Notes: generated from the sequence alone by a model not told the origin. A stretch of DNA of 64,000 bases from Armatimonadota bacterium (GCA_026003195.1 BPGU01000002.1:868001-932000); one strand, 5' to 3'. Numbered from the stretch's first letter, positions 27,178-49,243 are shown. Numbers and translations: made by a program.

Positions 27178-27352
27178 ATGCGCATGAGCGAGACCGTGTC
27201 TGAGCCCGGATGGTGGATGCACGTGGAGACAGTAGAACGAAGGATTGGCTTGTCTACGCGGCGACGTTACCGTCTTCAATCCCCACGACCCGACGCAGCT
27301 GATTTTCGGCACAATGGGAAGAGGCTTTTTCGTCGGCAGATAGCGATAGCTA
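27178..27352 (+). pseudogene. Remnant of a BNR/Asp-box repeat protein
   Basis: Between the epimerase and the barrel-protein genes, short frames on the + strand carry pieces of a BNR-repeat protein. One frame gives KDWLVYAA. After a shift, another frame gives VTVFNPHDPTQLIFGTMG and then RGFFVGR before a stop at about 27350. That ending is typical of the last blade of WD40/YVTN/BNR-like (sialidase-type) propellers. No continuous frame or proper start remains, so I call it a decayed 3' end. Confidence is moderate because only about 30 residues match the pattern. Confidence 0.4.
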
Positions 27353-30155: not shown

Positions 30156-33100
30156 TTACCTCGTCAGAACAATCGGCTGAACCACGCTGGCGGTCTGACC
30201 GTCCTCGGTCGTAGCGGTTATCCGCACCATGTAGGCACCAGCTGGCACCGCCACCCCTGCGCTGTTGCGTCCGTCCCAGGTGATGCTGTTCACGCCTCGT
30301 CCAGCCGCCTGTCCAGCCTGCAGAGCGCGTATCGGCTTGCCGGTGGCATCGGTAATCTGCACTGCCACCGACGCCTCCGTGCTCAGTGCGTAACTAATCT
30401 GCACGCGAGTGCTGCCCGCCGAGCGGGTCTGTGCCACGCGCACATTACTGATCATCGCCGCCGTGCGCACCCGAGGCTGCACGATGACCTGGAACCGGCG
30501 GGTACCGCCGTTCGCACCGCTGTTGTAGGTATACGACGGCAGGGTGGTCATCACACGGCGCACGTTGGCGTCCATATCCACCAGCACCATCTCGACGTTT
30601 CGGCTTATCTTCGCCAGATTGGGCCACGAGAGGGTCACTGGCGTGTTCGGCATGTCGGTCAGCACCTCAAAGGTGTACACCTGCTTCGCTCCGGCACTGC
30701 GTCGTACGTCTACCGCCAGCGGAGCCTTGCTCTCCGGCGACAGCAACTGCACGTGCACGTAGTTCTCCAGCGGAGCAGGCTTCTCCACTTGCAGGCTCTC
30801 ACCCGACACGCCGATGTAGTTGTCGGAGTCCATTGCCTCGCCAGCGCGGGCTACCAGCTGCACCATCCAGTCGCCTTCGCTCATCTTCGCCGAGCGAGTA
30901 ATCTGCGTACCGCCTGCGGAACGGCTTCCGGGCGGGTTCAGGATGAGCTCAGCGTCCACCAGAGCACGTATCCAGTATCCCACGAAGGGCTGCAGGTTCT
31001 CGCCTGCGCTCACCATCTTGTAGGCGCGGGCGACTGGGTCGTAGCGCCATGCGTAGTCCCGAACCAGACCCTTCTTTGCCGCCTCAGCAAGGGTCATGAC
31101 CTGACCGGCTACGCGCACCTGCGCCGCGCCCAGAAGCGTGGGTTGCAGGTACACCGAGCCTATCATGTTCCAGCCCTGTATCAGCTGGATGGAGAACGGC
31201 TGTGTCTGGTCTGCCAGCGTGCCCACCGGCGATACGTTCACTGTACCGGTAGCGCGCACCCAGTAACCTGCACCCGCCTGCGCCACCACAGCGTTGCCCC
31301 TGACATAGCGATTCTCCAGAGGCGACCAGCGGATGAGGTTAATGGTGCTCGTGTCGAACCCGAACAGGAAGTCGGGGTCGCTGGATGGCGGTATCAGCGG
31401 AATGGAAACCATGCTGATACCCGGCTGGATGGTAAAGGTTGCTCCCTGCACCTGCACCGTCACCGGTGCACTGTTCACCCCATCGTACTCCTCGTTGCCC
31501 GCCCACGAGGCGTAGGCAGACCACGTACCGGTAACGCTGGGCGTGAACTGCACCGAGAAGGAGCCATCGGAAGCGGTATTCACGTTCTGGACCTCACCTG
31601 CACCTACCGGAGGCGAAATCACCACCTGCACCGAGGCGTTGACCGTTGCGCTGCCCGACAGGGTGAGTTGCCCGTTCAGGGTGACGGTCTGTCCAAGCAC
31701 AGTGGTTCCGGTGGGCGCGGTAAGCGTAATCGTTGCCTTGTTCACAGTCGGACCGGTCTGCACGGGAGTAACCACCGCGTCATACTGGTCCTGAGCGCGG
31801 AACTGGAAGGTATGTGTGCCCTCGCTCAGGCGTCGCTTGAACTGGTAGGTCACGCCCGCCACGTAGTCGGTGCCCGTGCCGACTTTGGTCATGGCGTACC
31901 ATGTGCCGTCGATATTGACCTGCACCTCACCGCCGGGCGTGCCGCTGAACGCTTTCGGAGCATCCCCATCGGCGTCTTTGTAGGTAACCTCATACACGAA
32001 CTCCGTGCTGAGCTTACCCGACACCGGGGTGACCTTCGGGTTCAGCAGCTGCGGCGGGTTGTTCACCTGCGGACCGGTTCCGGTCAACGGGTCAGCGTCT
32101 GCCCCATAATTGTCTCGCGCGATGAAGCGGAAACCGTAGTTGCCGGGGGCGAGATTGGAGTTCGCCGGCACGTCCGCGGTGAAGATAACGCCCGTCGTGT
32201 AGTCGGTGCCGCTGCCGGTCATCTCCAGCGTGCGCTCCGAGTTATCCGGCTGGATGACCACCACTCGTACGAACTCTGGAGCATCGCCATCTGCATCGGT
32301 GTAGGTCACCGAGTAGCGGAACGATGCGTTTCCGGTATCGCGCACCGGCGCCACCGAGCCGTTACTCAGAACCGGCTTGGCGTTGGTCACCGTGGGTCCG
32401 TCGCCCAGCAGCGGGTCGGCGTCTACGGTGCCGTCGTTCGCCTCAAAGCGGAACTGATAATCGCCTACCAGCAGGGACGAGTTCGCCGGAATGCTACCGG
32501 TAAAGGTCACGCCCTGCGTGTAGTCACCCGAGCCGGTGAGGTCCAGCACCTGCTCAGTGCTGTCCGGTTTCAGAATACGCACCCGCACGAAGGCAGGGGC
32601 ATCGCCATCGCCATCAGTGTACTTCACGCTGTAGGTGAATGCCGCATTATGTGAGCCGGTCGCGGGAGTGACCGTACCGTTGCTCAATATCGGCTTGAGG
32701 TTTAACACTTCAAAGGCGCCGTTGACCTCCGCTGCATCCTCGGCGAACGGATCCGCATCCTGTGCCGCAATGCGATAGGTGTGGTTGCCAATCGCCAGCG
32801 GGGCAGGAGCCTGATAGCGATACACTACGCCCGCCTGGTAGTTTGTGCCGCCAGCAGAGGTCATGTTCACGCCCGTCGTGTCGCCGTCGATAAACAGCCT
32901 CACGAACTTGGGCGCATCGTTGTCGGCATCCTGATAGGTCACCACGAAGATGGGACGCGCTACTTTAGAGACCTGCGTTGTCGCCGTGCTGCCATCGGTG
33001 GTCACCTTGTTCCCTGACAACACCGGTTTGTGGTTCACCGCTACATTCTGTTGCGCAGTCATGAACTCGCCGTTCTGGAAGCGGAACTGGAAGGTATGTT

Positions 33101-36100
33101 GTCCGGGCGTCATCGGCGCAGCCGGCGCGTTCAGCGTCAGGCTATAGGTCACACCGTTGCGGAAGTCCGCAGGTGTGGGACTGGCAGGAATGGTTTCATT
33201 CAGCACGTACGGCGTGCCGTCTATCAGCACCTCGATATTGCCCACCGGCGGTGTGCCGTTGGGGTTGGTGAAGGTAATCTGGAAAGCGTACGCCGCATCG
33301 CTGCGCCCGCGCGGCTCGTTGTTACCAGCAGGAGTGATAGTCACGCGCGGGTTGGAGAGTTTGTTGAAGTCGTTTACGTTGGGTCCGCTGAACTCGCCCG
33401 TCGTCGGCAGGCGGACGGTGTTGCCGCCATCCGACGCCACAAAGTGGTACTGGTGGATAGCGGGTTCAGCGCCCAGCGTAGTCGCGTATTCAAACAGCGC
33501 GCCGTTGACATAGTCCGGTGTGCCGTTGGGTACCATGTCGTACTCGGTGCCGTCAATCCACACGCGGATGAATCCGCCGTTCGTGGCTACAGGCGCCTGC
33601 CCTTCAGCGTCCTTGTAGATCACGCGGAAGGTGTAGAGCGTGCCCTGGTCACCGCTGGTTGGAGTGACCGTGCCACCCGCTGGCTCCAGCAGTTCGGGCG
33701 CCGTGTTGGCTACGACATTCGGTCCCTCTTGCCAGTCGGTAGTGACCACCACTGTACCGTCGGATGTGGTGAAGCGGAACTCGGTCTGCCCCACCGGCAG
33801 CTTGATACCGGTCACCTGGTAGACCACACCGTCCGAATACAGCGTGCCGCTTCCTGGCGCGATGCTCAGGTCGCGCTCGAAGATGCTGCCCGGGTCGGAC
33901 GTGTTGCGGTACTGCACCTTGATGAACGTGGGTGCGTCGTTGTTCTTGTCCACGTACTTGGTGCGGAACGTGAACGACGTAGCCGTGTTCCGGAACGTAT
34001 CGGACGCCAGGTAATCACCACCCACGTCTGCCGGGTCGGGTGCCCAGTTTACGTCGGTTCCGACTGCGGTAGCGGGTTTCACCAGATATGGCTGTTTGTT
34101 GTCCACCACAATCGGTCCAGCGATAGTGTTCTCCACCACCACCTTGTTGGCATCATCGTTCGGGTCGGTGGTGGCGTTGGCTGGCAAGAGTGTGGTTTCA
34201 CCTTCCAGCAACGTGTTGGGGTCGTACGGGTCGCCCCAGTTGTCGGTGAACTCGAAGTAGTAATGTCTCGTCCCCGGCTGCAGTACGATACTGGGGTCGG
34301 AGGACGTATCGAACTTATACACCACCCCTTCGGAGTACTGCACGCTGTCCGGGCTTTCGCGCACCATGTTCACCGTGACCCATGTTCCGCGCGGCGCAGG
34401 GTCATCCCTCAGCTGGATGTGCAACCGTGCGCGCACCGGACGCTGATTGTTCGGGTCGGTGTACTTCACGCGGAAAACGTAGTTAGTGCCCTGCTTGCCC
34501 GTTGCTGGCGTCACCGAGTAATCCGAAAGCACCGCTTTGGTATTCACAAAGGGTCCCATGAAGAAGTTGCGTCCCTTCGTGTGGATACCACCAGCCGGTA
34601 GCACCGGATCGTCCAGCGGGCGCACTGGGAAGCGCACCGTACGCGTGCCGTCGTTCGCCTCGAAGTAGTAGGTATGTGGTCCTCTGGGCAGCCGCGTGCG
34701 AGCCACGTATACGCCCGGGTTGGTCTGGGCGGGGTTTTCGGGCTGCATCGTGAGCTGCAAGGGATAGCTTTCACCTGTGTAGTCGTTGCTGATAAACACC
34801 TTGATGTACGCCGGGTCCCGGTCGCCCTGATAGCGGATACGGAATTCGAACACCGTATCCTCTGTGCCCATCACCACCGGGAAGGACTGCGTGCCCGGTG
34901 CGGTCGGACCGGGTTGTGGATGGAACGGTCCGTTGGGCAGCGCCTGGTCCGGGTTCCAGAAGACAGTGGTATCGTCCGCTGCCTTGCGCACCGTGCCCAG
35001 ATGCAGGAAGTTCGGCTGGAACATGGAGCGGAAACCGCTCAGCACGGGCGTAATACGCGGATGCTCTGTAGACAGCAGCGGATAGGCAGGATCCTGGAAC
35101 GGATTGCCTGGCTGGTAGACCGCCGGAGCACTGTCCTCTGTGGGGAAGTGGTCTACGCCCGCACGGAACTCGTAGCCGTGCACACCGTGCGCCCCTACCA
35201 TGAAAGCATTATCTGTGGGACGTCCATACTTGTACGGCAAGCCGTATCGGCTATCACCCGACTGACTTTCGTAGTGGGTGGGTTCCCAGACATACTCATA
35301 GACCACACCGTTTCGGAAGTCATCCGGTGTCAGACTACCCAGCGGAATGGGATTACCGCCGGAGTCGAGCTTATAGATTGGCACCATCCAGTGCGGCTCG
35401 CCATCGATATAGAGGTACACGCCGCCGAAGTCGTTGCCTTCCACTTTTCCCGTGCCCCACACCGGCGTTGCGTGGGGTGCCGCTGTATACGGCGGTGGAG
35501 GCATGAAGGTATCCGAGACGAACTCGTGGACGTAGCTACCGTCCGCTCCGTTCATCGTGAATGCCGAGTAAATCGGTTGCGGTGGGATGCCGTACGGATG
35601 CCGATAGAGCACCCGGTAGCGATAGCGAGTGGAGCTGGAGCCATCGTCCGGCGCCAGCAGGTCCAGAGGGTCGGGGCGAAGCGGGTCTCTCTGCAAGGGG
35701 TCAGATGCTGCCAGCGCTTCGTCATCGAAGAGCGTTTTCACACGCCACAGCTGCGCACGACTCAGAACGTCCGTAATCTGCGGAACCACGATAAGCGTGT
35801 CCGGGCTGAACGCGGCAGTGACGGGGTCCTGGGGCTGGTCGGTCATCCAGTTCACCAGCACACCCAGGCTGTGTGTTCCCACTCCGATGTCGCTACCTTT
35901 CATGGCGGCACGGTACACGCCACCTCCGACCGGAGTCAACGCCAACCTCGGTAGTCCATCAATGGTCAGGAACACACTCATGATAACCTCGTTGTCCGCA
36001 CCAGGCGTTACCACCGCCTGGAAAACAAACCATGTACTGATGGAGCCGTCGGCAGTTGCCCCTTGCTGAAGTACACGGTGCGGGCGGACCGAAGTGCTAC

Positions 36101-36191
36101 CCACGCTTGGAGCAGCCAAACTGCTTGTCGCCCACGTGAGCACCCACAGGCTGGCGAAAGCCAGAGTGAGCCACTTCCACCCGTTGCGCAT
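30156..36191 (-). CDS. Giant secreted repeat protein with C-terminal FlgD-Ig module
   Basis: About 2011 aa from ATG 36191 (GGGAGAG 9 bases upstream; TTG 36227 would add 12 basic residues). A signal peptide ends near SSLAAP. The body is a chain of about ten divergent ~100-residue Ig/cadherin-like repeats, each with a block like YSVTYTDADGDAPEFVRV, a TGVIFTADVP-type segment and a FRFIARDNYG-type segment. Later come an Ig segment, a tandem module with GYWVRA, a strand-rich region, and a C-terminal FlgD-type Ig domain with SITWDGRNSAGVAVPAG. It ends VQPIVLTR. It is probably exported and surface-held. Three neighbours share the C-terminal module. Confidence 0.8.
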   Translation of the reverse strand: MRNGWKWLTLAFASLWVLTWATSSLAAPSVGSTSVRPHRVLQQGATADGSISTWFVFQAVVTPGADNEVIMSVFLTIDGLPRLALTPVGGGVYRAAMKGSDIGVGTHSLGVLVNWMTDQPQDPVTAAFSPDTLIVVPQITDVLSRAQLWRVKTLFDDEALAASDPLQRDPLRPDPLDLLAPDDGSSSTRYRYRVLYRHPYGIPPQPIYSAFTMNGADGSYVHEFVSDTFMPPPPYTAAPHATPVWGTGKVEGNDFGGVYLYIDGEPHWMVPIYKLDSGGNPIPLGSLTPDDFRNGVVYEYVWEPTHYESQSGDSRYGLPYKYGRPTDNAFMVGAHGVHGYEFRAGVDHFPTEDSAPAVYQPGNPFQDPAYPLLSTEHPRITPVLSGFRSMFQPNFLHLGTVRKAADDTTVFWNPDQALPNGPFHPQPGPTAPGTQSFPVVMGTEDTVFEFRIRYQGDRDPAYIKVFISNDYTGESYPLQLTMQPENPAQTNPGVYVARTRLPRGPHTYYFEANDGTRTVRFPVRPLDDPVLPAGGIHTKGRNFFMGPFVNTKAVLSDYSVTPATGKQGTNYVFRVKYTDPNNQRPVRARLHIQLRDDPAPRGTWVTVNMVRESPDSVQYSEGVVYKFDTSSDPSIVLQPGTRHYYFEFTDNWGDPYDPNTLLEGETTLLPANATTDPNDDANKVVVENTIAGPIVVDNKQPYLVKPATAVGTDVNWAPDPADVGGDYLASDTFRNTATSFTFRTKYVDKNNDAPTFIKVQYRNTSDPGSIFERDLSIAPGSGTLYSDGVVYQVTGIKLPVGQTEFRFTTSDGTVVVTTDWQEGPNVVANTAPELLEPAGGTVTPTSGDQGTLYTFRVIYKDAEGQAPVATNGGFIRVWIDGTEYDMVPNGTPDYVNGALFEYATTLGAEPAIHQYHFVASDGGNTVRLPTTGEFSGPNVNDFNKLSNPRVTITPAGNNEPRGRSDAAYAFQITFTNPNGTPPVGNIEVLIDGTPYVLNETIPASPTPADFRNGVTYSLTLNAPAAPMTPGQHTFQFRFQNGEFMTAQQNVAVNHKPVLSGNKVTTDGSTATTQVSKVARPIFVVTYQDADNDAPKFVRLFIDGDTTGVNMTSAGGTNYQAGVVYRYQAPAPLAIGNHTYRIAAQDADPFAEDAAEVNGAFEVLNLKPILSNGTVTPATGSHNAAFTYSVKYTDGDGDAPAFVRVRILKPDSTEQVLDLTGSGDYTQGVTFTGSIPANSSLLVGDYQFRFEANDGTVDADPLLGDGPTVTNAKPVLSNGSVAPVRDTGNASFRYSVTYTDADGDAPEFVRVVVIQPDNSERTLEMTGSGTDYTTGVIFTADVPANSNLAPGNYGFRFIARDNYGADADPLTGTGPQVNNPPQLLNPKVTPVSGKLSTEFVYEVTYKDADGDAPKAFSGTPGGEVQVNIDGTWYAMTKVGTGTDYVAGVTYQFKRRLSEGTHTFQFRAQDQYDAVVTPVQTGPTVNKATITLTAPTGTTVLGQTVTLNGQLTLSGSATVNASVQVVISPPVGAGEVQNVNTASDGSFSVQFTPSVTGTWSAYASWAGNEEYDGVNSAPVTVQVQGATFTIQPGISMVSIPLIPPSSDPDFLFGFDTSTINLIRWSPLENRYVRGNAVVAQAGAGYWVRATGTVNVSPVGTLADQTQPFSIQLIQGWNMIGSVYLQPTLLGAAQVRVAGQVMTLAEAAKKGLVRDYAWRYDPVARAYKMVSAGENLQPFVGYWIRALVDAELILNPPGSRSAGGTQITRSAKMSEGDWMVQLVARAGEAMDSDNYIGVSGESLQVEKPAPLENYVHVQLLSPESKAPLAVDVRRSAGAKQVYTFEVLTDMPNTPVTLSWPNLAKISRNVEMVLVDMDANVRRVMTTLPSYTYNSGANGGTRRFQVIVQPRVRTAAMISNVRVAQTRSAGSTRVQISYALSTEASVAVQITDATGKPIRALQAGQAAGRGVNSITWDGRNSAGVAVPAGAYMVRITATTEDGQTASVVQPIVLTR

Positions 36192-36239
36192 GGTCTTTTT
36201 CTCTCCCTTAACCATTTTCTTCGCCAATCCTCCCCTTGC

Positions 36240-38882
36240 TTACCGCGTGATCACTACCGGTTGCACGGCGCGTGCGGTCTGCCCATCTTCGGAGGTCGCT
36301 GTGACCTCTACCAGATAGCTTCCTGCAGGCACCGCGATGCCTGCGCCGTCGCGTCCGTTCCACGTCAGATTCGTTACGCCGCGCGATGCGGCTTCTCCTG
36401 CTTGTAGCGTCTGTACGACCTTTCCTGTCGCACTCACAATGCGCACCTTCGCGCTGGCGGCGTCACTCAGGGCGTAGCTGATAGCCACTGCGCCGCCGCG
36501 CGTACGCGTGACCCGCAACGAGGTGATGCGCAGTCCCGCCGTGCCACGAGGTTCCGCCACTATCTGGAAGCGTCGGCTACCGGACGCGCCCACCGTGAAG
36601 GTGTAGGATGAGGTGGCACGCAGGTCGCGCGTGACCTTCGCTTCAGTGTCTACCAGCTTCAACCGCAGGGATGAAGGCACGCCCTGCATTCCGTTCCATC
36701 GCAACACTACCGTGCTGTCAGGCTTCGGCGCAGTGACCACCATCTCCCAAACCTGTCGGCGGGTGCCGTCGGCGCGAATGTCCTGAGCCAATATATTCTG
36801 CCCATCGGGCGCAATCAACATCGTGCGCACGCTCTCTTCCACCGGAGCAGGCGGCTTGGGCATATCGTAGAGGTCGATGCCATCCACCGCGCGAGAGGCT
36901 GCGCCGATGATGGCAGTTGCGTCCTGTTTGCCTTCGCTTTGTGCACTGAACTGCACTCGCCAGCGTACAGAAGCCGCACCTGCTCGGCTGGGGAAGGTGA
37001 TGGTTGCACCGGGCGTGACCACGTTCGGGAACACCACTTCCAGATTACGGCTTTCCACGTATATCCAGTAGCCCCGTCCGGGTACCATCAGCGCAGAAGG
37101 ATCACTATACAGTGAGATGGGTTTGTAGCCGGCAGGTGGCGTAGTATCGTAGTAGAACAGCACGCTACGCACTAGCCCACGCTGCACCGCCTCTGCATAG
37201 GTCATAGCGAACCATTGCGTGACATCAATAAAGCGGATCAGTCCGATAGGCACCGGGTAGGGGTACGGATTACCAATCTGCACCCATCCCTGCGGTAGCG
37301 CTAATCGCAAGGTACCACCAAAGGCGTCTCCTGCTATCTTCGCCCCACTGAGTGTCAGGGTCTGGTCGGTGTTGACCCGCAACCAGTAGCCTTCGCCGGG
37401 GCGGATACTGTTGACCAGCGCATAGCGTCGCTGAGTGGAATCCCAGCGTAACAGAGCAAAATCGCCCTGCTCCAGCCCCAGAATCGCGGCAGGGTCTGTG
37501 TTGTCGAAGGCGAAGGGCAAGCTCACCATCTGGAAGCCAGACTTCAGGTCCACCCTTGTCGTCATCGGCACAATCAGCGGCCGGGAAACGCTCTTGGACA
37601 GACTACCTGGCGACACTGTGGAGTAGACACGATAGGTCAACTCACCCATCTTCTCACCGGTTGGCTTCACGCGCCAGCTCACTGTCGCCACTTCGCCGGG
37701 CAATACGGAAGGAACCATCTTGGTCACGCTCTCTCCAGCCGCGAGCGCAAGCCCCTGCGGAAGCGAAATGGAAAAGCTGACATTCTCAAACGTGACGTTT
37801 TGCAGCGAGTTGAGCGACCGATAGTTGGTCACAGAAGCCCCAATGGTAAACTCCTCAGGCGACAGCTGGTTGGTTTTGCTGGCATCCAGCCCCACCACGC
37901 CGGGCGACTCGGTGTCCAGCGCGTAGCGACCAGAGGGATCGTTAGTACTGGTAGCCAGTCCGATCATAGTGACAATGGTTCGCGATTTGCCTGGCATCAG
38001 CGATTGCGGGTTCCAGTAGCTGGCGATGGCATGGTCATTCACCTCCAGATCAGGGCTGGAGGTGAAATCCCACAGGTTCGCTGACAGCCGCGAAAACTGA
38101 CTGATTACCACCCTGTCGGGTGTGGTCAGTCCGTTCTGCTTAAAAAGCCAGCGCAAGATCGGCGCGTTCATCGTCCGAAGCGGCGCCGCATCCACAGAGG
38201 GGGGCACCTGCCCACCTTGCAAATCCAGGTCATTCTGAACGGGGAAGTAACCAGGTACGAGCACGTAGTCCGATGTTGCTGTTGGGAAGCCGCTGCCCAC
38301 CGCTTCGTCTATCAGGAAGCGTAGCCCGACCTGTTGTGTTTCCGTGCCCTCGTTGGTGATGGTCCAGGTGACGCGGGCATAGCCGCCGACCAGCTCCACC
38401 ACCTGGTCCACACGGATACCCGTGTCCGCATGACGCCAGCGACCGATAATCATGTATCGCCCGCTGGGGTCTGCGAAGGGCTCGATACCATCTACCCACT
38501 CGCCGTCGTCGCTACCCCATACCAGGTCCTCTGTCCCGTCGGCGGTCACGATGCGCACCGTCACCACACCGAAATTGCCACAGGGATAGGGGTAGGCGAA
38601 CACCAGCGCTTTATTGTCGTCGTTGGTGGTGAAGCGCGCGCCTTGCACCGTGCCAAGCGTGATGCGCCCGATAGCATCGTAGTTCGTGCCACCGATACCC
38701 ACCTGTCCATCCAGACCGATACCGGTCATCAGGATGCCGTTATTGATATACACGGCACGGAAGTCGTTGCTTGGCTGTGCCAGCGCGACGGCTGAGAGAA
38801 GACTCACCAGCAGCCCCGCTATCAGCACGCACGCCGTCCATCGTCGTTTGCTCCAACCGACGATCGTGAAGGGTTTCATCAT
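36240..38882 (-). CDS. Secreted protein with conserved C-terminal FlgD-Ig module
   Basis: About 880 aa from ATG 38882, with GGGAGGACAG before it (longer frame to 38915 rejected). After a signal peptide (to VALAQP) come ~280 residues of unknown beta-rich structure (DFRAVYINNGILMTGIGLDG). A strand-rich region follows, then two copies of a fold with FQMVSLPF...DPAAILG...LLRWD...GEGYWLRVN and GWVQIGNPYPYPVPIG...GRGYWIYVES. Near the end are the D-IRADGTRRQVW strand and the FlgD-type Ig domain LTWNGRDGAGIAVPAGSY, ending VQPVVITR. It belongs to the four-protein family in this array. Function unknown. Confidence 0.75.
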   Translation of the reverse strand: MMKPFTIVGWSKRRWTACVLIAGLLVSLLSAVALAQPSNDFRAVYINNGILMTGIGLDGQVGIGGTNYDAIGRITLGTVQGARFTTNDDNKALVFAYPYPCGNFGVVTVRIVTADGTEDLVWGSDDGEWVDGIEPFADPSGRYMIIGRWRHADTGIRVDQVVELVGGYARVTWTITNEGTETQQVGLRFLIDEAVGSGFPTATSDYVLVPGYFPVQNDLDLQGGQVPPSVDAAPLRTMNAPILRWLFKQNGLTTPDRVVISQFSRLSANLWDFTSSPDLEVNDHAIASYWNPQSLMPGKSRTIVTMIGLATSTNDPSGRYALDTESPGVVGLDASKTNQLSPEEFTIGASVTNYRSLNSLQNVTFENVSFSISLPQGLALAAGESVTKMVPSVLPGEVATVSWRVKPTGEKMGELTYRVYSTVSPGSLSKSVSRPLIVPMTTRVDLKSGFQMVSLPFAFDNTDPAAILGLEQGDFALLRWDSTQRRYALVNSIRPGEGYWLRVNTDQTLTLSGAKIAGDAFGGTLRLALPQGWVQIGNPYPYPVPIGLIRFIDVTQWFAMTYAEAVQRGLVRSVLFYYDTTPPAGYKPISLYSDPSALMVPGRGYWIYVESRNLEVVFPNVVTPGATITFPSRAGAASVRWRVQFSAQSEGKQDATAIIGAASRAVDGIDLYDMPKPPAPVEESVRTMLIAPDGQNILAQDIRADGTRRQVWEMVVTAPKPDSTVVLRWNGMQGVPSSLRLKLVDTEAKVTRDLRATSSYTFTVGASGSRRFQIVAEPRGTAGLRITSLRVTRTRGGAVAISYALSDAASAKVRIVSATGKVVQTLQAGEAASRGVTNLTWNGRDGAGIAVPAGSYLVEVTATSEDGQTARAVQPVVITR

Positions 38883-38929
38883 CTGTCCTCCCTGTGTATC
38901 TTCCCCGTGTGTCATATTGCTTCCACCGT

Positions 38930-41881
38930 CTATCGAGTAATCACAATCGGTGTCACCGTGCGGGTGCGTTCGCCATCGGCAGCCGTCGCCTCAATACGTA
39001 CCAGATAGCTTCCCGCCGGCACCGCTACACCCTTGCTGTCACGCCCGTTCCACGTAGCGCTGTGGACACCTGCAGAGCGAGTGTTCTGCACGAGGCTCGC
39101 AACCGGTTTGCCGGTTGCGTCAGTGATGGCAATCTGCACCTGCGCTTCGGCAGACAACATGTAGTCGATGGTGAAGCCGCCGCCTCGCGTCGCCCGCACA
39201 CGCACCGACGACACGCGCAGGGTGGAACGCACCTCCGGTTCGGCGATGACGGTGAAGTTGCGGGTGTTCACGCCACCGGTCTGATAAGTGTAGCTGCCTG
39301 TCGTGCGCATCGCTATCCGTTTACCCGTCACCTCATCCACCAGCGTCAGGCGCACTCGTGCAGGTACATCCCTGATACCTTCCCACCGCAGGGTGACCGG
39401 CTCGTTGACCTGGTCGGTCTCTACCTGCAGCCGCCACACTTGACGGCGATTGTCGTTACGTCGCACATCCTGCGCGTACACTCCCGAGCGTGTTCCCCAC
39501 TCGGTGTTCAGTATCTGGACGCTCACATACGGGCTGATCGCAGGCGGTTTCAGCACATCCTCTCGCCCGTAGCCATCTACCGCGCGACTGTTCACGCCGA
39601 TGAGCGTGTTACCATCTCGCACTGCTCCCGCCGTTGCAGCAAAACGGAGCAACCATCCCTTGCCACCGGAAAGGGTAGCATCCACAGAAGCAGAGCGTCC
39701 ACCCGCAGGCAGGGGCATCACAATCAACGTGCAGTCCTGGAAAGCGCGCACCCAGAAGCCTTCCCACTTGTAGAGCACCCCAGCGGGCGCGGTCTGCCAG
39801 GTATACACGCCGTTCTCATAGCGGAACAACTGAGGCAGGATAATCTCCTTATCCGCCGCCTCCTGCAGGCTGATACGCATTCCACTACTGGTCTCCACCT
39901 CGCAGGCGACCCACGGTACGTGGAACGCAAACGGGTTGCCGATCATGTTCCAGCCCTTTTTCAACGGGATGCGATAGGGAGTTTCCGGCGCAGGGCTACC
40001 TTCGGTCAGCACCGAGGTGTCGGTGGGCAGGTCGATGAAGTACGCCAGCCCCAGCGGAGCCATCGTGCTGCCTCCCTCAGGTCCTACTTGCTCAGAAGTC
40101 TGGTCAAACGAGGCGGCAGGGTCCTTGGGTGCACCCCAGGAACTGTACTTCGCATATCGCCCCTGCTCGGGTAGCCAGCGGAACATCTGGAAACCGGAGC
40201 CCAGCATTGCCTCTGCCGCGACCGACCGGTTCGGTTGCCCCGTTTGCGGCTGGAAGTACGGAATGGAAACCATCGACCGCCCTGCCTGCAGCACGCGCGG
40301 AGATATCTGGAAGGTTATCTCGTCGGTGCTGGAGATAGTCGGGTCGTTCACATTGCGGGCAGTGACTTTCACCGTATGCGTGCCAGGTGCCAGCCTGCGG
40401 GTCAGCCGAATAGTCGCCACCACGCCACTGGGGTCCAGCACGTAGTTGTCGGCAATTTCGGTGGAGCTGACAGCCTGTCCGTCGATGGTGATGCTCACCA
40501 GAGCGGCTGAGGTATTGGTCACGCTAAAGACCAGCGTCGGCTTCAGTGTTTCTACCACTTCCGACCGCGCCGGGCTGACTACCGCCGCCGAGGTCGCTAC
40601 CCGGCGAATGGCATTGTATACATCGAGGATTCCGTAACCAAACTCGGGGTTCGGTACGGAGCGTCCATCTGCTGCGGCGGTATCCTGAATCAACTTCTTG
40701 ACCTGGGCAGGATTCACCCCTTGTGAGAGCAGGATAGCCACCGCTCCAGAGACATACGGGGTAGCCATAGAGGTGCCCAGGGCATACTCGTAAGTTCCCC
40801 CGGTCGCCGTGGTCAGGATATCATCTGTCACATTGCCAGTTGCCCAGGAGTTACCACCGGGGGCGGCTACCGTGTTATAGGAACGGGCGGAGGAGTATAT
40901 GGCGCGTTCGCGTCGAGGTCCCACCGCCGCCACCGACAACACCTGATTGCTCACCGAGGCGATGTTCGCAGGCCACATCGGTGGGTTTCCTTCCATGAAA
41001 GAGTTGCCTGCCCCTGCAACAAACACGATACCCTGTCTGGTCGCAGTCAGGATCAACTGAGTCACGGGGTTCGTCAGGTCTGGCTGGTCGCTGACGTCCA
41101 CTCCTGCAAGGCTCATGTTGACCACGTTTGCTTTCTGGTCGATACAGTACTGCACAGCACGCAGAAGAGCGTCCATGGGGAAGACACCGCCGCTACTATT
41201 GGGAGATGCCTTTACCGGCAAGATCTTCACACCCTCCCAAGTCACTCCGGCGATGCCGATGCCGTTATTGGTGGTCGCGCCAGCCACTCCAGCCACGAGG
41301 GTACCGTGTCCCCAACCGCCACCAGTGCTCGGGGCAGAAAGGTCGTTATCGTCGTCCGCCACATCCCTGCCCGGCAGGAGACGGTCTTTCAGGTCCGGGT
41401 GCGTCACTTCAAAATCGGTATCGACGACAGCCAGCACAATGCTGGACTTGCCTCTCTGAAACACCCACGCGCGCGGCATGTTGATCATCTCGTGCCCCCA
41501 CTGCTCGCCGTAGCGGGGGTCGTTCGGGCGCACCTCTCGCTGCACAGGGTAGTAAATCCTGTTCGGTCCCACGTAAGCAAAGAGACCGGTGTCCCTCAGC
41601 TTTTGCACTGCTTCCAGCGTTTGTTCATCGGTTACTGCGCCCTCTTTGGCACCCTTCATCACCAGGTGGTACACCCCCGGCACACCCAGATAGTTCACCG
41701 TTATATCCATCTGTTGCGCCAGGCTCTGGAGCTGTTCCACACTGGTACTCGGGTGGAGTGAAACAATGAGTTCTCCCGCCACAAACTGACGCACAGTCTG
41801 TTGTGGCATGGCAACTGCACTCCAAACACTGAACAGAACAAACGTCGCCAGAATGCAAAACATCCGCGCGCGCATTTTCAT
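38930..41881 (-). CDS. Subtilisin-family (S8) secreted serine protease with C-terminal FlgD-Ig module
   Basis: 983 aa from ATG 41881, with GGAGGTGTCAG before it. A signal peptide and an inhibitor-like propeptide (about 30-115) precede the S8 catalytic domain (about 125-430). Catalytic Asp154 (VVDTDF), His192 (GHGTLVAG), oxyanion Asn293 (GAGNS) and Ser371 (GTSMATP) are all present, so it should be active. After the protease come an Ig-like domain (IDGQAVSSTEIADNYV), two GYW-type modules (MFRWLPEQGRY; KGWNMIGNPFAFHVPW), a DVRRNDNRRQVW strand and the FlgD-type Ig domain ATWNGRDSKGVAVPAGSY, ending TPIVITR. It may mature its neighbours. Confidence 0.9.
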   Translation of the reverse strand: MKMRARMFCILATFVLFSVWSAVAMPQQTVRQFVAGELIVSLHPSTSVEQLQSLAQQMDITVNYLGVPGVYHLVMKGAKEGAVTDEQTLEAVQKLRDTGLFAYVGPNRIYYPVQREVRPNDPRYGEQWGHEMINMPRAWVFQRGKSSIVLAVVDTDFEVTHPDLKDRLLPGRDVADDDNDLSAPSTGGGWGHGTLVAGVAGATTNNGIGIAGVTWEGVKILPVKASPNSSGGVFPMDALLRAVQYCIDQKANVVNMSLAGVDVSDQPDLTNPVTQLILTATRQGIVFVAGAGNSFMEGNPPMWPANIASVSNQVLSVAAVGPRRERAIYSSARSYNTVAAPGGNSWATGNVTDDILTTATGGTYEYALGTSMATPYVSGAVAILLSQGVNPAQVKKLIQDTAAADGRSVPNPEFGYGILDVYNAIRRVATSAAVVSPARSEVVETLKPTLVFSVTNTSAALVSITIDGQAVSSTEIADNYVLDPSGVVATIRLTRRLAPGTHTVKVTARNVNDPTISSTDEITFQISPRVLQAGRSMVSIPYFQPQTGQPNRSVAAEAMLGSGFQMFRWLPEQGRYAKYSSWGAPKDPAASFDQTSEQVGPEGGSTMAPLGLAYFIDLPTDTSVLTEGSPAPETPYRIPLKKGWNMIGNPFAFHVPWVACEVETSSGMRISLQEAADKEIILPQLFRYENGVYTWQTAPAGVLYKWEGFWVRAFQDCTLIVMPLPAGGRSASVDATLSGGKGWLLRFAATAGAVRDGNTLIGVNSRAVDGYGREDVLKPPAISPYVSVQILNTEWGTRSGVYAQDVRRNDNRRQVWRLQVETDQVNEPVTLRWEGIRDVPARVRLTLVDEVTGKRIAMRTTGSYTYQTGGVNTRNFTVIAEPEVRSTLRVSSVRVRATRGGGFTIDYMLSAEAQVQIAITDATGKPVASLVQNTRSAGVHSATWNGRDSKGVAVPAGSYLVRIEATAADGERTRTVTPIVITR

Positions 41882-41934
41882 CTGACACCTCCGACGCATC
41901 AGTCGTCTTTTCTCATCGCTTGTGGTTCTCTGCA

Positions 41935-41970
41935 CGCGCCCCCTCTCCCCATCTCGTGAGAGGGGGCGCG
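41935..41970. terminator. GC-rich hairpin ahead of the protease gene
   Basis: A perfect 13-bp stem (CGCGCCCCCTCTC / GAGAGGGGGCGCG) with a 10-base loop, in the 108-bp gap between the CsgG-like gene (ending at 41990) and the protease gene, both leftward. No T-run follows. Confidence 0.5.
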
Positions 41971-41989
41971 TCTCTTTTCTCTTCTGCCG

Positions 41990-43759
41990 TTAGGGAGCAG
42001 GGGGAGGCTCCTCCACCGGCATGAACGAGAACGGCTCACTCCAGATGTATCGGTACTGTCCCTTGCTGTCTCCGGTCCACGGAACAGGACCAGGCTGGTC
42101 ATTGATGTTGCGTGCTCCTGCTCGCCAGTACAGGCGCTGTGCACCAGCGAACTTCGTGCGCAGGTTGACGTTGCGAATGGTGATCGTCGAGCCTGCGGGC
42201 ATCAACACCTCATCGGTGTAGAGCGAGAGTGCTTTGTTCTGGAAGGTGGGGTCAGTGGAGACCTCCACTCGGTAAGCTTGCGCACCAGGCACCGCCTGAA
42301 ACTCAAAGTCTACCGTACCGAGGTTGACATCCTGGCTGCCATTGGCAGGGCGCAACAACACCGGCTGGGTCAACGGAGTAGCGGGTCCCGTCCACTTCTT
42401 ATCGCTCTCCCGGTAAGTGACATCCTGCTGTTGTTGTCCTTGCTGTCCCGTTTGCCCAGCATATGGCGATACAAACCGGTAAATGAGCGTCACCGCGTAG
42501 CGATAAGACTGTCCTGCCGTCACGCCGGGCATATCTTCTTCGTCGGTGAGGTCGGGAGTATCCACCTCCTGCCCCGGCGCGATGTCCACGTAGCTCACCG
42601 TGCGAGCCGTCTGCGTATCCACGACGTAGGTCTCATTCGAACGGGCAGTGAGCACTGGCACGCGCGGGCGGGTGGGGTCTGCCGGTTCACGATAGATATG
42701 GTACAGGATACGGTCCTGATTCGCCTGAGCGAACACGCTCGGTTTCCAGGAGATTTTGACTGCTGGTCCGGTCGGGTCAGTAATCGCCTCTGCCACGACG
42801 TTGTCTACACCGCTGCTGCCTCCCCGAGCGATTCGGGTGGCACCAAAGACGATCGCGGCAATCACAGCGATCTTGCCCAGATTGCTCAACCCAGCGGACT
42901 TAGGCTTAGCACGAGGCTCCGCGATTTTGACCTTGCCTCTATCCAGCTGCACGGTGGGCAGTTTGAAGACCGCACGTGCTTTGTCTTCAGGTTGAATGCC
43001 GAGCGTGCTACTGATGACCTTAGCGAGGGCATCGCTGGTGCTGGGGCGGGTGACCCGGATGCGTCCCACCACATCTCTACCGCGCAGCACTATCATCTCC
43101 ATACCGGTCTGAATACCACTGCGGGTGCCCCGGTTGAGCAACACCTCATCGGTGCCAACGGTATTCAAAACAGTGGCTTCAGGGATGGTATAGGAGGCAA
43201 TCGTGGTCGCCGCTTGCAATGCGGCGTTGCTGATCGCTTCCCGGATGAGCTGGTCATCGTCTCCAACGTAGCCCACTCGCGGGTTGCTCTGTCCGGTCAC
43301 AGCAGCGCCGTTGACGTCCTCACCCGATGCCACGTCGGTCACGCGCACCAGAAGCGTCACGCGAGCAGTCCTCGGCGAGCCTTCCACGACGACTGCTACC
43401 ACCTCGCCAGACACGATGGAATCCACCGCCAGGGTCTTCCCCAGTTTCATAACCCCCAGGCGGTCCAGTATCGGCTCGAGAGAGAGCTCCTGCAGCGCGT
43501 TTTGCACCTGCGTGCGTGGAAGCACGTTAAAGCCCGCGCGCGACAGCTCTATCGCCACCGCATCCGTAGCAGCGCGGCTTAGCAGCGCCTGCTGCAGCCC
43601 AGGACGCACGGTGAAGTCCACCACCGCTACGGTACCGCGAGCCGCTTGCTGTGCAGCTGCAGGCACCGGCGTCAAGGACGCTATCCCTGGCAAGACCATC
43701 GCCACAATCAGCGTCCAGCTCAACGCGCGAGCGATTAACCCTTTCCGGAAGCGTTTCAC
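41990..43759 (-). CDS. CsgG/TolB-N-like secreted protein with FN3-like region
   Basis: 589 aa. A signal peptide ends at PAAAQQ, followed by a CsgG/TolB-N-type domain (about 42-190: GTVAVVDFTVRPGLQQALLS, VEGSPRTARVTLLVRVTDVASGEDVNGA). A strand-rich domain with TDEVLLNRGTRSGIQTGM follows, then one hydrophobic helix near residue 300 (IAVIAAIVFGATRIARGG) and fibronectin-type segments (ISWKPSVFAQANQDRILYHIYRE-type). The C-terminus is acidic and proline-rich. The layout matches the 257-aa gene at 29309-30082, suggesting paralogues at both ends of the array. I infer an envelope assembly or regulatory role. No signature allows more. Confidence 0.65.
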   Translation of the reverse strand: MKRFRKGLIARALSWTLIVAMVLPGIASLTPVPAAAQQAARGTVAVVDFTVRPGLQQALLSRAATDAVAIELSRAGFNVLPRTQVQNALQELSLEPILDRLGVMKLGKTLAVDSIVSGEVVAVVVEGSPRTARVTLLVRVTDVASGEDVNGAAVTGQSNPRVGYVGDDDQLIREAISNAALQAATTIASYTIPEATVLNTVGTDEVLLNRGTRSGIQTGMEMIVLRGRDVVGRIRVTRPSTSDALAKVISSTLGIQPEDKARAVFKLPTVQLDRGKVKIAEPRAKPKSAGLSNLGKIAVIAAIVFGATRIARGGSSGVDNVVAEAITDPTGPAVKISWKPSVFAQANQDRILYHIYREPADPTRPRVPVLTARSNETYVVDTQTARTVSYVDIAPGQEVDTPDLTDEEDMPGVTAGQSYRYAVTLIYRFVSPYAGQTGQQGQQQQDVTYRESDKKWTGPATPLTQPVLLRPANGSQDVNLGTVDFEFQAVPGAQAYRVEVSTDPTFQNKALSLYTDEVLMPAGSTITIRNVNLRTKFAGAQRLYWRAGARNINDQPGPVPWTGDSKGQYRYIWSEPFSFMPVEEPPPAP

Positions 43760-43834
43760 CTTTACCGATTCCCCCTATTCGTTCGTTTCATTTCGTCGAT
43801 ATCTTTTCCCCATGCAGGGGCGATGCTCCTGTGA

Positions 43835-46800
43835 TTATCGTGTCAGCACCACAGGCACCACACTGCGGGCAACCTGCCCATCGGAGCCAGTAGCACGTAT
43901 CTCTACCGTATAGGCACCTGCAGGCAGGGACACACCGCGGTTGTCGCGCCCGTCCCAGGTCACCGTGTGGATGCCTGCAGCTCGCGTGGAGCGCGCCAGC
44001 AGATCCCGAATCGGCTGACCATTGCGCAGCACCACCACGCTCACCGACGCCTCGCCGTTCAGCGCGAAGGAGATGGTGCGGCTGTTGCCCCGGCTCAGTA
44101 CGCTGACGTTGCTGATGCGCAGGCTGGTGGCTCTGGTGTCCTGCACCTCCACCCGGAAGGAGCGGGTGGTCTGCCCTTCTCCGCTGCGGAAGGTGTAGGC
44201 AGACAGGTTGCGCAGGGAGCGCCGCTGTCCAGTGGATTCATCCACCAGCACCAGCTGCAGATGACGAGGCACGCGCGCCGCATTCGGGAAGCGCAGGGTC
44301 ACGTCGGTGTTGGCAACATTGGTGGTCACCGTAAACCGCCACACCTGTCCTACTGCTCGGGAGCGCACGTCCACCGCGTACTGTCCGGCGGTTGCGCCCC
44401 ACTCTGGATGCTCGAACGCCACCTGCACCATCGGCTGTCCGTCGAGCACTGGCGGTCGCTCCACGTCGAACAAGGCGTCGTAGCCGTCGGAGGCACGGCT
44501 AGATACGCCGAAGTAGTTGCTGGTGTCCATCGTGTTGCCAGCGATGGCGGCAACCTGCACCAGCCAGCCGTCGGTCTGAATCGGCTCCGCCGAGCGGGTG
44601 AGCGCACTGCGGCTGCGACCTGCCGGGTCAATCAGCAGGGTCACCGCGCGATTTGCTCGCACCCAGTAACCCATCCACGGCTGCAGTTCGGTCGCGAGGA
44701 CATATTGACCGCTCACATACGTCCACAGCCCGTTGCGTATCGCCTGATTGGCTATCGCCTCCTGCACGCTGACCACGCTCGCTCCATCACGCACCTTCAT
44801 ATCCAGCCAGCGCAGCGGGAAGTTATACGGCACGCCAATCAGGTTCCAGCCGGGCGCAAGCGGTATCTCAAACGGCACGCCCGTATCCGCCGATGCACCC
44901 TCCTGCGTAATCACCAGCGGCCTGGGCACGTTCAGGAAGAAGGCGCGTCCCAGGCGCACCCGGTCGGCAGGCACATTCGGATACACAACGTACCGTCCCA
45001 GCGACCACGCGAACAGTTTGAAGTTCGAGCGGTCTGCCGGCAGAACATTCAGCACATCCGCCGGGTCCTGGGTGGGATAGTCAAACGGCACCGAGATCAG
45101 GCTCAGCCCTGCGGCAAAGGTATGCAGCGGTTTGAGCGTAAAGTTCACGCCGGTGGTCTCGGTGTCTGACTGCACGGTCACCGTGCGCGACTCGGGCACC
45201 GGAGTGAACCCGCTCTTGCGCACACGCACCGTGTAATCGCCTGCATCTACACCGGTGATGCGCCAGTTGAAGGTATAGCCGTTCTCGGTCTGTGCCGGTC
45301 CGGTGGTGGTGCGATAGGTCTTGTTGCTGGAGACCACCTCCACCTCCACACCCTCTTCGGGCTGCTGATCACCCTGTCGGATAACCAGACCGGAGAGGCT
45401 ACCCGGCGGCACCGGCTCCAGCTGGAAGTCCTCGGTAATCGTCTGGTTGGACTGCACGACAATGGTCTTTGTCTGCGGCGAGAAGCCAGCCGCCGATGCG
45501 GTCGCCTGGTAGGTTCCGCCGTCCACACCGGTAATGGTGTACTGCCCGTTCTGGTCGGTGGTGGCGGAAGCCACCGTGGTCGTGCCGCTCCTGATGGTCA
45601 CCAGCGCGTTGGCGATGGGATCGCCGTTATCGGCGCGGGTGACGGTACCGGTCACGTTGCCCGGCGCAGGCTTCAGGCGGAAGTCTTGCGTGACCTCACC
45701 GGCTGGTGGTATCGTGACGCGCACCGGCTGCGGCGGCTGGTCGGGCGAGAAGCCCGCCTTTGTCGCTGTGACATCATAATCACTGGTAGGCAGGCGCGGG
45801 ATGACATAGTTGCCCTGTGCGTCGCTCAGGGCGGTAAACTCCTGCCCATTAATGACATCCTTCGCCGTGACCAGCGCGCCCTGAATCGGCGTGGTGCCAT
45901 CGGGGTAGGTGACCTTGCCCCTCAGCAAGCCGGGTTGCGCCTTAGTGAGCAGGAAGCTGGTTGACCCAAAGTCGCCCCCATGGAAACCAGCTAAGGAAAC
46001 CTTCTGCGCCGTGTAACCGGGTGCCTGCGCTTCCACTTCGTAAACAGATGGATCCAGCCCGCCGATGCTGAAGGTACCGTCTCGACGCGTAAAGGCAGTA
46101 CCTATCTGCGGACCGGTAGTGCGTTCGTTGCCACCGCGGAAGATAGCACGCACCAGTACGCCTTCGATAGGTTCGCCGCCCTCCACATCGCGCACCGTAC
46201 CCACAATCGTGCCTGTACGCATCCAGCAGATGATGTTATGCATCAGTTTGCCACGGATATTCCGACCGTAGGCGGTGTTTTCGAAGGTGTAGTAGTGACG
46301 GTTCAGACCTTCCAGTCCAAAGCTGCCGTATACTACCTTCCCACCGGTGCCTGCGTCGAACCAGTAGATGAGCCCCTGTGTGCCATCTTCAAAGCTCAGC
46401 TCCGTGCGTGCTGGCGCGATGGGGCTGATGGCGTCCACGTATCGCTGGTTCGGCGCGCCATCGTTAAAGTACAGGTTGTTGACGTCAGGACCGGGCTGCA
46501 AATGGCGCGGAGAACCTCGCCATGGTGGGTCATACGTCAACCCGTTGCTGGTGATTTCGTAGTAATTATGCTCATCCCAGGTCGTATGTGCAAAGGGATA
46601 GCTGAGGTTATCCGTACCGGACAGGCTATTACGATTCAGCGGGTCCAGAGAAGGATGCTGGTCGTTGACGAACTGCGCTCTCAACACCGTGGTGTAGAAA
46701 GCGTTTGCCTGCGTGCCATTCAGCGTTAGCGCCCAGCCGATGTCCTGACCGAAGACGAACAGGCGTCCGCCCTGTGCCACAAACTGCGTGAGGTCGCGCT

Positions 46801-49243
46801 GCGTGTTCAGGTCAGTAATCGTGCCGCTACCTGCCCACACATCCCCTGCGTAAGGCGCTGCCCAGATGACGCACCGATCCGCTACCAGCACCGTCTGTGT
46901 GGCGCCACGCGGGTTGGATGGGCTCGGCTGCTGTTCACGACGTGGCAGATAAGCCGCGTATACCGACTGGGGTATCGGGCCGCGGCAAAGAATGCGCCAG
47001 ATGTCGTAGTTTTGCGAGTCGGTGACGAGCGAGTCGCTGGACCAGAAAGCAAGGTTAGGCCAGGGTGCACCGCTTGGCTGGCGGGTTCCATAAGACCCCA
47101 CACCCAGCGTATTCCATGTATCCGCTACCGGCTTCGGCTCCGTATCGGTGTTGCTAGAGAAATAGTTACCTGCCCACGGCAGGTAGTTAATGTCGATATC
47201 GGTGAGCCACGACTCGGTGCCCCAGTAGGTGAAGTACACATTGTCCAGCGCGAAGTTGATGCCGAACCGCCCCTGGAAGAACTTCTGTCCCAGCGTGTAA
47301 TCCGAGACGAACAGCACCTTGCTGGATGCGCTGAACGGCCTGGTAGAGAAGCCCCAGACGTTGTCGTAAATCTTCCAGTTAGACTGCTGGGTGGGGCGGA
47401 ATGGGTTCACCGCCCGGTCGTAGGCGATGATGTCCATGTACCAGTCGCTGGGGTTGTCTGCCGGTGTTGCCCAGGTGTTGGTATAGATGCCGTCGCCAGC
47501 AACCTCGCCTTCGGGTTCGTGTCCACCCTGCGAAGCGGGACCATCGTCCCACAATTGCAACCAGTGGCTCTTCGGCGGATGCGCTGCGCCGCTGAAAGCA
47601 CTGAAGTCATCCGAGCCCGGTTCGTACATCTCTCTCGGATAGCCCAAGAAACGACTCGGCATCATCGTGGGTCTGCCGGGCATGGTACCGGTCAGCGTGA
47701 CATAGGTGTTGGTTGCCGGGTCAATAGGCTGGCAATCGAACTCATAGGGAACAAGCGTCAGGATGAGTGAGCTTCCCTCCGCCGTCGTCGGTCCTGCGTT
47801 AAAGTAAAGCTTATGCTCTATCCCCTGAGCGTCCTGATACTTGCTATCGGGGTCCTTAATCTGAGCATAAACCGCCGCCACCCCGCTCTCGAGGTCGCGC
47901 ACCCTGGCACGAATGCGCACCGTAGTGCCGGGAAGTGAGACGCGCGGTATCACCTGCACGATCTCATTGGTGTTCACATCCGCCTTTTCCAGCGACGGCG
48001 CCGCGAGGTCGACTATCGATGTAGAGAAAATATCCCAGTTACCGGTGCGGTTGCTCACGTGCGCCAGTTTGAGGGCGGTAGTGAACTGCGACCAGGTAGG
48101 CATTTCCTCGTCGGTGCTGTAGGCAGGATCGCGCGCGTCGATGTGATAAATCTGTGCGGTAGGTTCTACCGTCTGCAACCCGGAGCCATCGGGCAGAACG
48201 GTAGCGTCCATGAAGTAGATGTCAAAAGTGCTCCCGACCGCGTCCGGGGTACCGTCGCCGTTGGTATCCTGTCGGTTGGAGGCAAACGCCAGCCACAGGA
48301 TGGGACGGTTTGCCCCGGTGATAAAGCGAGGGAGTTCGCGCAGGCTCCACGTTGCCTGTTTGTTAGAGCTCTCCACGCCGTTGGCAGAGAAGTTGGTGAC
48401 ACGGCGAACCACCGCCGCGCTGGGATCCAGCGCATAGGGAGTAACCGTCCAGATGTCGGTCGTCGCTTTTGCACTGGTTCCTGCCGCGTCCGCGCGGTTG
48501 GAGGTAAAAGCGAGCAGTTTCCCATCGGGAGACCACGCAGGTTCCGTGTCATTGCAATTACCGGCGGTAACCTGGCGAATGACGCCGGTATCCACGTTGA
48601 TGACGAAGATGTGGTAGACGTTGCCTACCTTACCCGCAAAGGCGATTTCCAGCCCACTGGGTGACCAGGTAGGCTGGCGCACCTCGGTGAAGGGAAGGTC
48701 AGTTCGCTCGCGCGTGAGGCTCAGAACGGCGCCCGTAGTGAGGTCGCGCACGAACAGGTGATAAGGCGCTGCGGCAGAGGCTCGTGCCACGTATGCGAGC
48801 CGGTTCTGGTTCAACGAGAGCGCAGGCTCCATCTGGTCGCCCTCTTCGGTGGTAACCTGACGGATGCTGTTCCCATCGGGGCTCATGACGTAGATATGCC
48901 AGTTCGTACCTCGCGCCCCGTTATCTGCGCTGACACGGTTGGAGTAGAAATAGATAAACCGGTCATCGCCTGACCACACAGGACCCAGCTCATCCGCCGC
49001 AGACCGTGTCAGGTTCGTCGTCTGTTCCGGCGTCGCTCTGCCCTGGAGCATGTCCCAGTCGCGCTTCAGGTCTACAGGGGCGCGATCAGGGGTGCCGACA
49101 ATGGGGAAACGTGGGAAGCGGGGCTTCGACTGCGCCAAAGCCACTGACTGGCTCAAGAGTACCGCAGCGATAGTCGCCCCCAGTAAGAACGTCCACGCCC
49201 GCCACACGGGCGATACCCAACAATGAGCGCCTCTCAATGCCAT
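43835..49243 (-). CDS. Giant secreted TolB-like propeller protein with CarboxypepD_reg domains and FlgD-Ig module
   Basis: 1802 aa. A signal peptide ends near VALAQS. Residues about 75-420 are a TolB/PD40-type propeller (FIYFYSNR, ALSLNQNRLAYVAR, PTWSPSGLEIAFAG, AWSPDGKLLAFTSNRA). A large middle region is of unknown fold. Residues about 1050-1400 hold four carboxypeptidase-regulatory-type beta-sandwich repeats (GTVRDVEGGEPIEGVLV, GKVTYPDGTTPIQGALV, GTVTRADNGDPIANALV). The shared C-terminal module follows, with GYWVRAN and the FlgD-type Ig domain VTWDGRDNRGVSLPAGAY, ending VPVVLTR. It is first in the array and lies 80 bases after the promoter at 49323-49351. Confidence 0.8.
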   Translation of the reverse strand: MALRGAHCWVSPVWRAWTFLLGATIAAVLLSQSVALAQSKPRFPRFPIVGTPDRAPVDLKRDWDMLQGRATPEQTTNLTRSAADELGPVWSGDDRFIYFYSNRVSADNGARGTNWHIYVMSPDGNSIRQVTTEEGDQMEPALSLNQNRLAYVARASAAAPYHLFVRDLTTGAVLSLTRERTDLPFTEVRQPTWSPSGLEIAFAGKVGNVYHIFVINVDTGVIRQVTAGNCNDTEPAWSPDGKLLAFTSNRADAAGTSAKATTDIWTVTPYALDPSAAVVRRVTNFSANGVESSNKQATWSLRELPRFITGANRPILWLAFASNRQDTNGDGTPDAVGSTFDIYFMDATVLPDGSGLQTVEPTAQIYHIDARDPAYSTDEEMPTWSQFTTALKLAHVSNRTGNWDIFSTSIVDLAAPSLEKADVNTNEIVQVIPRVSLPGTTVRIRARVRDLESGVAAVYAQIKDPDSKYQDAQGIEHKLYFNAGPTTAEGSSLILTLVPYEFDCQPIDPATNTYVTLTGTMPGRPTMMPSRFLGYPREMYEPGSDDFSAFSGAAHPPKSHWLQLWDDGPASQGGHEPEGEVAGDGIYTNTWATPADNPSDWYMDIIAYDRAVNPFRPTQQSNWKIYDNVWGFSTRPFSASSKVLFVSDYTLGQKFFQGRFGINFALDNVYFTYWGTESWLTDIDINYLPWAGNYFSSNTDTEPKPVADTWNTLGVGSYGTRQPSGAPWPNLAFWSSDSLVTDSQNYDIWRILCRGPIPQSVYAAYLPRREQQPSPSNPRGATQTVLVADRCVIWAAPYAGDVWAGSGTITDLNTQRDLTQFVAQGGRLFVFGQDIGWALTLNGTQANAFYTTVLRAQFVNDQHPSLDPLNRNSLSGTDNLSYPFAHTTWDEHNYYEITSNGLTYDPPWRGSPRHLQPGPDVNNLYFNDGAPNQRYVDAISPIAPARTELSFEDGTQGLIYWFDAGTGGKVVYGSFGLEGLNRHYYTFENTAYGRNIRGKLMHNIICWMRTGTIVGTVRDVEGGEPIEGVLVRAIFRGGNERTTGPQIGTAFTRRDGTFSIGGLDPSVYEVEAQAPGYTAQKVSLAGFHGGDFGSTSFLLTKAQPGLLRGKVTYPDGTTPIQGALVTAKDVINGQEFTALSDAQGNYVIPRLPTSDYDVTATKAGFSPDQPPQPVRVTIPPAGEVTQDFRLKPAPGNVTGTVTRADNGDPIANALVTIRSGTTTVASATTDQNGQYTITGVDGGTYQATASAAGFSPQTKTIVVQSNQTITEDFQLEPVPPGSLSGLVIRQGDQQPEEGVEVEVVSSNKTYRTTTGPAQTENGYTFNWRITGVDAGDYTVRVRKSGFTPVPESRTVTVQSDTETTGVNFTLKPLHTFAAGLSLISVPFDYPTQDPADVLNVLPADRSNFKLFAWSLGRYVVYPNVPADRVRLGRAFFLNVPRPLVITQEGASADTGVPFEIPLAPGWNLIGVPYNFPLRWLDMKVRDGASVVSVQEAIANQAIRNGLWTYVSGQYVLATELQPWMGYWVRANRAVTLLIDPAGRSRSALTRSAEPIQTDGWLVQVAAIAGNTMDTSNYFGVSSRASDGYDALFDVERPPVLDGQPMVQVAFEHPEWGATAGQYAVDVRSRAVGQVWRFTVTTNVANTDVTLRFPNAARVPRHLQLVLVDESTGQRRSLRNLSAYTFRSGEGQTTRSFRVEVQDTRATSLRISNVSVLSRGNSRTISFALNGEASVSVVVLRNGQPIRDLLARSTRAAGIHTVTWDGRDNRGVSLPAGAYTVEIRATGSDGQVARSVVPVVLTR

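Follow-up and report, generated by a model that had tools for sequence, protein, structure and literature searches.

Four neighbouring proteins encoded between positions 30156 and 49243 of the window (the whole stretch of 64,000 nucleotides of Armatimonadota DNA analysed here) share a C-terminal module that runs to the stop codon and closes on a conserved arginine, and we are inclined, without strong conviction, to regard it as an Armatimonadota-specific surface-docking module, which resembles the type IX domain while standing outside that family. That four adjacent reading frames carry a common C-terminus had been predicted from the nucleotide sequence, and BLASTP bore this out over the last ~430-450 residues of proteins A, B, C and D (29-38% identity, E 1e-41 to 1e-72). 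In each protein a double GYW module is followed by a beta-sandwich with a D(V/I)R...RQVW motif and by an FlgD-type Ig domain, and all four finish P-(I/V)-V-(L/I)-T-R, as had likewise been anticipated. The N-terminal parts are unlike one another, as the following features of the window indicate.

30156..36227, minus strand: protein A, 2023 aa, with signal peptide, Ig-like repeats and C-terminal module; last residues PIVLTR
30156..31478, minus strand: C-terminal module of A (double GYW, RQVW beta-sandwich and FlgD_ig tail)
36240..38915, minus strand: protein B, 891 aa, with signal peptide, unassigned N-terminal beta domain and C-terminal module; last residues PVVITR
36979..37592, minus strand: double GYW stretch in the module of B (borders approximate; residues 1-~205 of AlphaFold model mcb39982d2a56)
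36543..36978, minus strand: beta-sandwich of B with the DIR...RRQVW motif (borders approximate)
36240..36542, minus strand: FlgD-type Ig domain of B, with Arg at the stop; predicted fold resembles the PorU C-terminal domain
38930..41935, minus strand: protein C, 1001 aa, with subtilase domain (PF00082) and C-terminal module; last residues PIVITR
38930..40300, minus strand: C-terminal module of C
43835..49243, minus strand: protein D, 1802 aa, with TolB/PD40 propeller, CarboxypepD_reg repeats and C-terminal module; last residues PVVLTR
43835..45208, minus strand: C-terminal module of D

The last domain exceeded the Pfam gathering cut-off of FlgD_ig (PF13860, 27 bits) near the stop in all four proteins (50.3, 52.9, 56.6, and 38.1 bits from A to D), and FlgD structures in the PDB matched it with E 3e-10. 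The FlgD-type Ig domain expected in every protein was hence recovered, while the VPAG motif, expected in all of them as well, reads LPAG in D. In flagellar FlgD the Ig domain belongs to the hook cap scaffold; the tail domain is of the same sequence family, but in flagella it does not form, as it does here, a tail with a conserved terminal Arg on diverse secreted proteins. A search of the open-access literature found no publication on this module.

Copies of the module in the genome and the phylum

A profile of the last 92 residues matched 12 places in the 4.58-Mb genome, 11 of which are exact C-termini (nine ending TR, one AR, and one KR). All 11 tail proteins have a signal peptide evident by eye and differing N-terminal domains, in line with the recurrence on secreted proteins that the original prediction implied, and seven of the tails lie outside the four-gene cluster, elsewhere in the genome, on different N-terminal parts. 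The twelfth match is an FlgD-type domain lying in the interior of a giant protein (locus L020), which ends in a GYW module without the tail, and FlgD_ig by itself occurs inside other proteins too.

A search of the same genome with the GYW part retrieved 11 copies, 10 of which are then followed by the tail. The sole tail lacking a GYW part belongs to a small secreted protein encoded at 776042-776875 of contig C3; the sole GYW protein lacking a tail is the giant one, whose gene starts directly after that tail-only gene. The relative G184 has this pair too (L135; proteins of 264 and 3699 aa, genes 4 bp apart), and it recurs where contig L036 ends, which makes three genomes in all. With ten fusions and a single split pair, GYW and tail would seem to function as a unit. 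The giant GYW gene is frameshifted in the present assembly (L020 4115-4185, C3 ~779.1 kb) and forms a single frame in G184.

When searched with a 245-aa module, the tail was present in 253 of 291 Armatimonadota genomes, and a scan of 84,980 species with one strict pattern gave no records beyond those named as Armatimonadota and unclassified metagenome bins that carry close relatives. All the 123 distinct full copies among the loci fetched end within 12 residues of the stop, so that the strictly terminal position holds for the full module, while the lone FlgD-type domain can be internal, as in the giant protein mentioned above. Arg is the terminal residue in 118 of these 123 copies, which are related sequences, and in 49 of the 54 clusters formed at 55% identity. 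The final column holds 3.75 bits, as much as the W, G, P, and Y columns of the core, while adjacent columns vary, and the final residues of neighbouring families are not conserved as Arg. A heuristic detected a signal peptide in 60 of 67 carriers with an intact 5' end (4 of 42 in the control), and the other seven proved on inspection to be broken or partial reading frames (four) or to have an evident signal peptide (three); the claim that the carriers are secreted proteins therefore stands.

In a tree of 68 tail domains, copies from the same protein cluster together (13 changes) and those from the same genome do not (47), indicating that each tail is old and was inherited vertically with its own protein. 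Gene conversion was considered as a source of the similarity among tails, and the tree does not support it.

The operon, its barrel and tail-less relatives

The four carriers are encoded together with conserved neighbours, all on the same strand:

49981..51138, minus strand: S1-domain (rpsA-like) gene, conserved upstream neighbour of the operon
49376..49978, minus strand: coaE, conserved upstream neighbour of the operon
41990..43759, minus strand: CsgG/TolB-N-like exported protein with weak CsgG and MreC-core matches, conserved operon member
29309..30082, minus strand: LpoB/CsgG-like exported protein, conserved in part of the operons
27350..29293, minus strand: putative outer-membrane barrel, with a Big_1/Invasin_D3 domain in its N-terminal part and a region similar to OstA/LptD

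Seven families (f8, f9, f10, f17, f18, f26, and f33) show all or part of the gene order S1, coaE, D, CsgG-like, C, B, (A), LpoB-like, barrel, and the operon that holds the four carriers is ancient. In the genomes of family f16, which we infer to be Fimbriimonadaceae-like, it is reduced to S1, coaE, CsgG-like, B, and barrel; B is the only module carrier in most of those examined, leaving a single tail per genome.

The barrel has a signal peptide, carries the Big_1/Invasin_D3 domain in all of the 17 members considered and ends in an aromatic residue in most of them; it was found in 278 of 291 Armatimonadota genomes, mostly as one copy. Its profile aligns to residues 74-389 of E. coli LptD over 272 columns (hhalign 55%; controls 0-2%), a likeness that is only suggestive of an LptD identity and derives from sequence profiles. 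The barrel differs from LptD by its N-terminal domain and by its zero score against PF04453, which matched none of the 17 members (one gave a weak OstA_2 match), and canonical LptD was not over the PF04453 cut-off in 15 Armatimonadota genomes, E. coli and Caulobacter serving as positive controls. An assignment of the barrel as canonical LptD was thus not established, since PF04453 scores nothing despite the hhalign match. Because tail-less genomes have the barrel as well, the co-occurrence of barrel and tail is uninformative and only synteny counts; for the same reason, co-occurrence cannot support a dependence of the tail on the barrel. Downstream of the barrel in close relatives lies a gene for a rhomboid protease with an N-terminal zinc-ribbon (24904-26106, minus strand, in the window). 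It was considered as a processing enzyme and set aside, not being next to the barrel beyond those relatives.

At seven loci (L102, L105, L107, L109, L111, L112, and L120), orthologues from the same operon lack the Ig tail but retain GYW, the CsgG-like protein and the barrel; in families f7, f35, f32, and f34 and in one f16 genus the orthologues end with either GYW or the RQVW sandwich. One Fimbriimonadaceae-like genome (G149, L122) has lost B and retained S1, coaE, the CsgG-like gene and the barrel. Tail-less operons and this genome indicate that the tail is dispensable and not universal, and that the barrel has another job; a universal sorting role is weakened by these lineages. We infer the GYW module to be the more widespread partner of the tail. 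The absence follows genomes: two of them (G021 and G241) encode five and eight GYW proteins, with tails on 0 of 13, while in three other genomes 23 of 25 GYW proteins have one. Tail presence thus tracks the genome and not the protein, which suggests a common partner; a common history could do likewise.

Comparison with type IX secretion and with Vpr

The type IX C-terminal domain (TIGR04183, PorU-RgpB) is likewise an Ig-like domain of ~90-100 aa at the extreme C-terminus of unrelated Sec-exported proteins, and the end of the last strand is conserved in both, as the terminal Arg here and as a conserved Lys in strand 7 in type IX, whose domains require their last residues (PMC11285876). The tail nevertheless differs from it in scoring below the curated TIGR04183 cut-off of 23 bits (best 21.8 for C, 17.6 for A, and 16.0 for B, D not being listed), in always forming part of a larger module that includes a beta-sandwich and, as a rule, GYW, and in belonging to the phylum Armatimonadota. 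The resemblance to a type IX tag that had been proposed therefore stands as to terminal position, signal peptides and predicted fold. It fails as to TIGR04183, SprA and the C25 peptidase, and the machinery sought in the genome was not found, with no SprA over the cut-off and no PorU-type peptidase.

The search with SprA_N (PF14349), run without a positive control, gave no match, and TIGR04189 (SprA) reached at best 36 bits against a cut-off of 200, with only local matches of ~100 aa that Thermus gives too. Peptidase_C25 (PorU-type) is absent from the genome of the window and from most tail-bearing genomes, and exceeds its cut-off in 6 of 33 genomes, some of which have tails and some of which do not. 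PorV was matched in 0 of 33 genomes, control genomes giving no match either. The weak local SprA-model matches include two outer-membrane-like proteins of the same genome (L100 and L101, contig C3), which share a ~100-aa motif GSERVxVDG...DYxIDY; Thermus composti also gives a match of the SprA model to such a motif.

The last 450 residues of B were modelled by AlphaFold with a pLDDT of 84.9. In this predicted structure the Ig tail superposes on the PorU type IX domain (6za2 1054-1157) with Z 11.6 and an rmsd of 2.3 over 94 residues, while residues 350-450 find their best structural match in Vpr 701-802 (Z 13.6, 98 residues, 22% identity). Since GH2 and other Ig/FnIII domains also match the tail domain at Z 10-11, the PorU match shows a fold and not type IX membership, and the Vpr match is not decisive. 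For the RQVW sandwich, no PDB match exceeded Z 5.1. Vpr, a Bacillus serine peptidase that forms fibrils (8jmw), is a subtilase with an FlgD-type Ig domain as its C-terminal part and is the closest structural likeness. It differs in being secreted by monoderm bacteria and in not lying in an outer-membrane operon, and the GYW and RQVW parts of the module were not matched to it.

Possible roles of the C-terminal module

The docking reading draws on the terminal position, the conserved Arg, the PorU-like predicted fold and the operon with a barrel in many families, and it is weakened by the tail-less orthologues, by the single tail in most Fimbriimonadaceae-like genomes, which leaves little for a general sorting system to do, and by Vpr being the best match. 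If it is correct, the carrier would first be exported by Sec, after which an envelope receptor (possibly the CsgG-like protein, the barrel or a protein encoded elsewhere) would recognise the folded Ig domain and its free terminal Arg, and would place and hold the carrier at the outer membrane in a type IX-like manner with other machinery. The split gene pair hints that the tail can act in trans. No receptor or processing enzyme for the tail was identified, and we consider it rather doubtful that the module marks an undescribed Armatimonadota outer-membrane sorting or anchoring pathway whose machinery includes the CsgG-like protein and the LptD-like barrel of the operon.

Close behind the docking reading comes a possible role as a structural assembly domain, whose GYW, beta-sandwich and FlgD-type Ig parts would connect large envelope proteins into a fibre or surface layer, with the Arg in an interface and no dedicated export machine. 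Vpr, whose fibrils are held together by two assembly domains (PMC10657474), is the precedent as the best structural match, though not a decisive one given the GH2 enzymes at Z 10-11; the carriers of the operon are large repeat proteins, and the small tail-only protein beside a giant tail-less GYW protein fits subunit assembly well; assembly alone nonetheless leaves unexplained a last residue as conserved as the core and a full module that never precedes another domain in 123 copies. Shared ancestry by itself, i.e., an operon grown by duplication of one secreted protein whose C-terminus is a leftover without tag function, appears improbable: the four genes are adjacent, their modules are homologous paralogues and tail-less orthologues exist, but seven more carriers with different N-terminal parts are found elsewhere in the genome, and the phylum-wide conservation to the last residue and the genome-wide presence or absence imply selection on the tail. 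A true type IX domain, with a machinery diverged past recognition, is very unlikely and mostly refuted: the sub-threshold TIGR04183 similarity and the PorU fold match speak for it, against the results for SprA, PorV and Peptidase_C25, the last of which is missing here yet detectable in a few other genomes, and against published surveys, which place type IX genes in the FCB phyla only and report them absent outside (PMC11285876).

The prevailing view restricts type IX-like C-terminal domains to those phyla. A phylum-wide module in Armatimonadota that is alike in fold and layout and belongs to an ancient envelope operon would imply one of two things, a further C-terminal sorting route of independent origin or a common ancestry with Vpr-like assembly domains. 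As a docking module it may represent an undescribed way to fix proteins at the cell surface, and it gives experiments a way into the poorly known envelope of the diderm phylum Armatimonadota.

Among the carriers, protein D gives a very weak match to the PorE model (0.085), and it combines a TolB-like propeller with carboxypeptidase-regulatory-like repeats, as PorE is also reported to do (PMC12204202).
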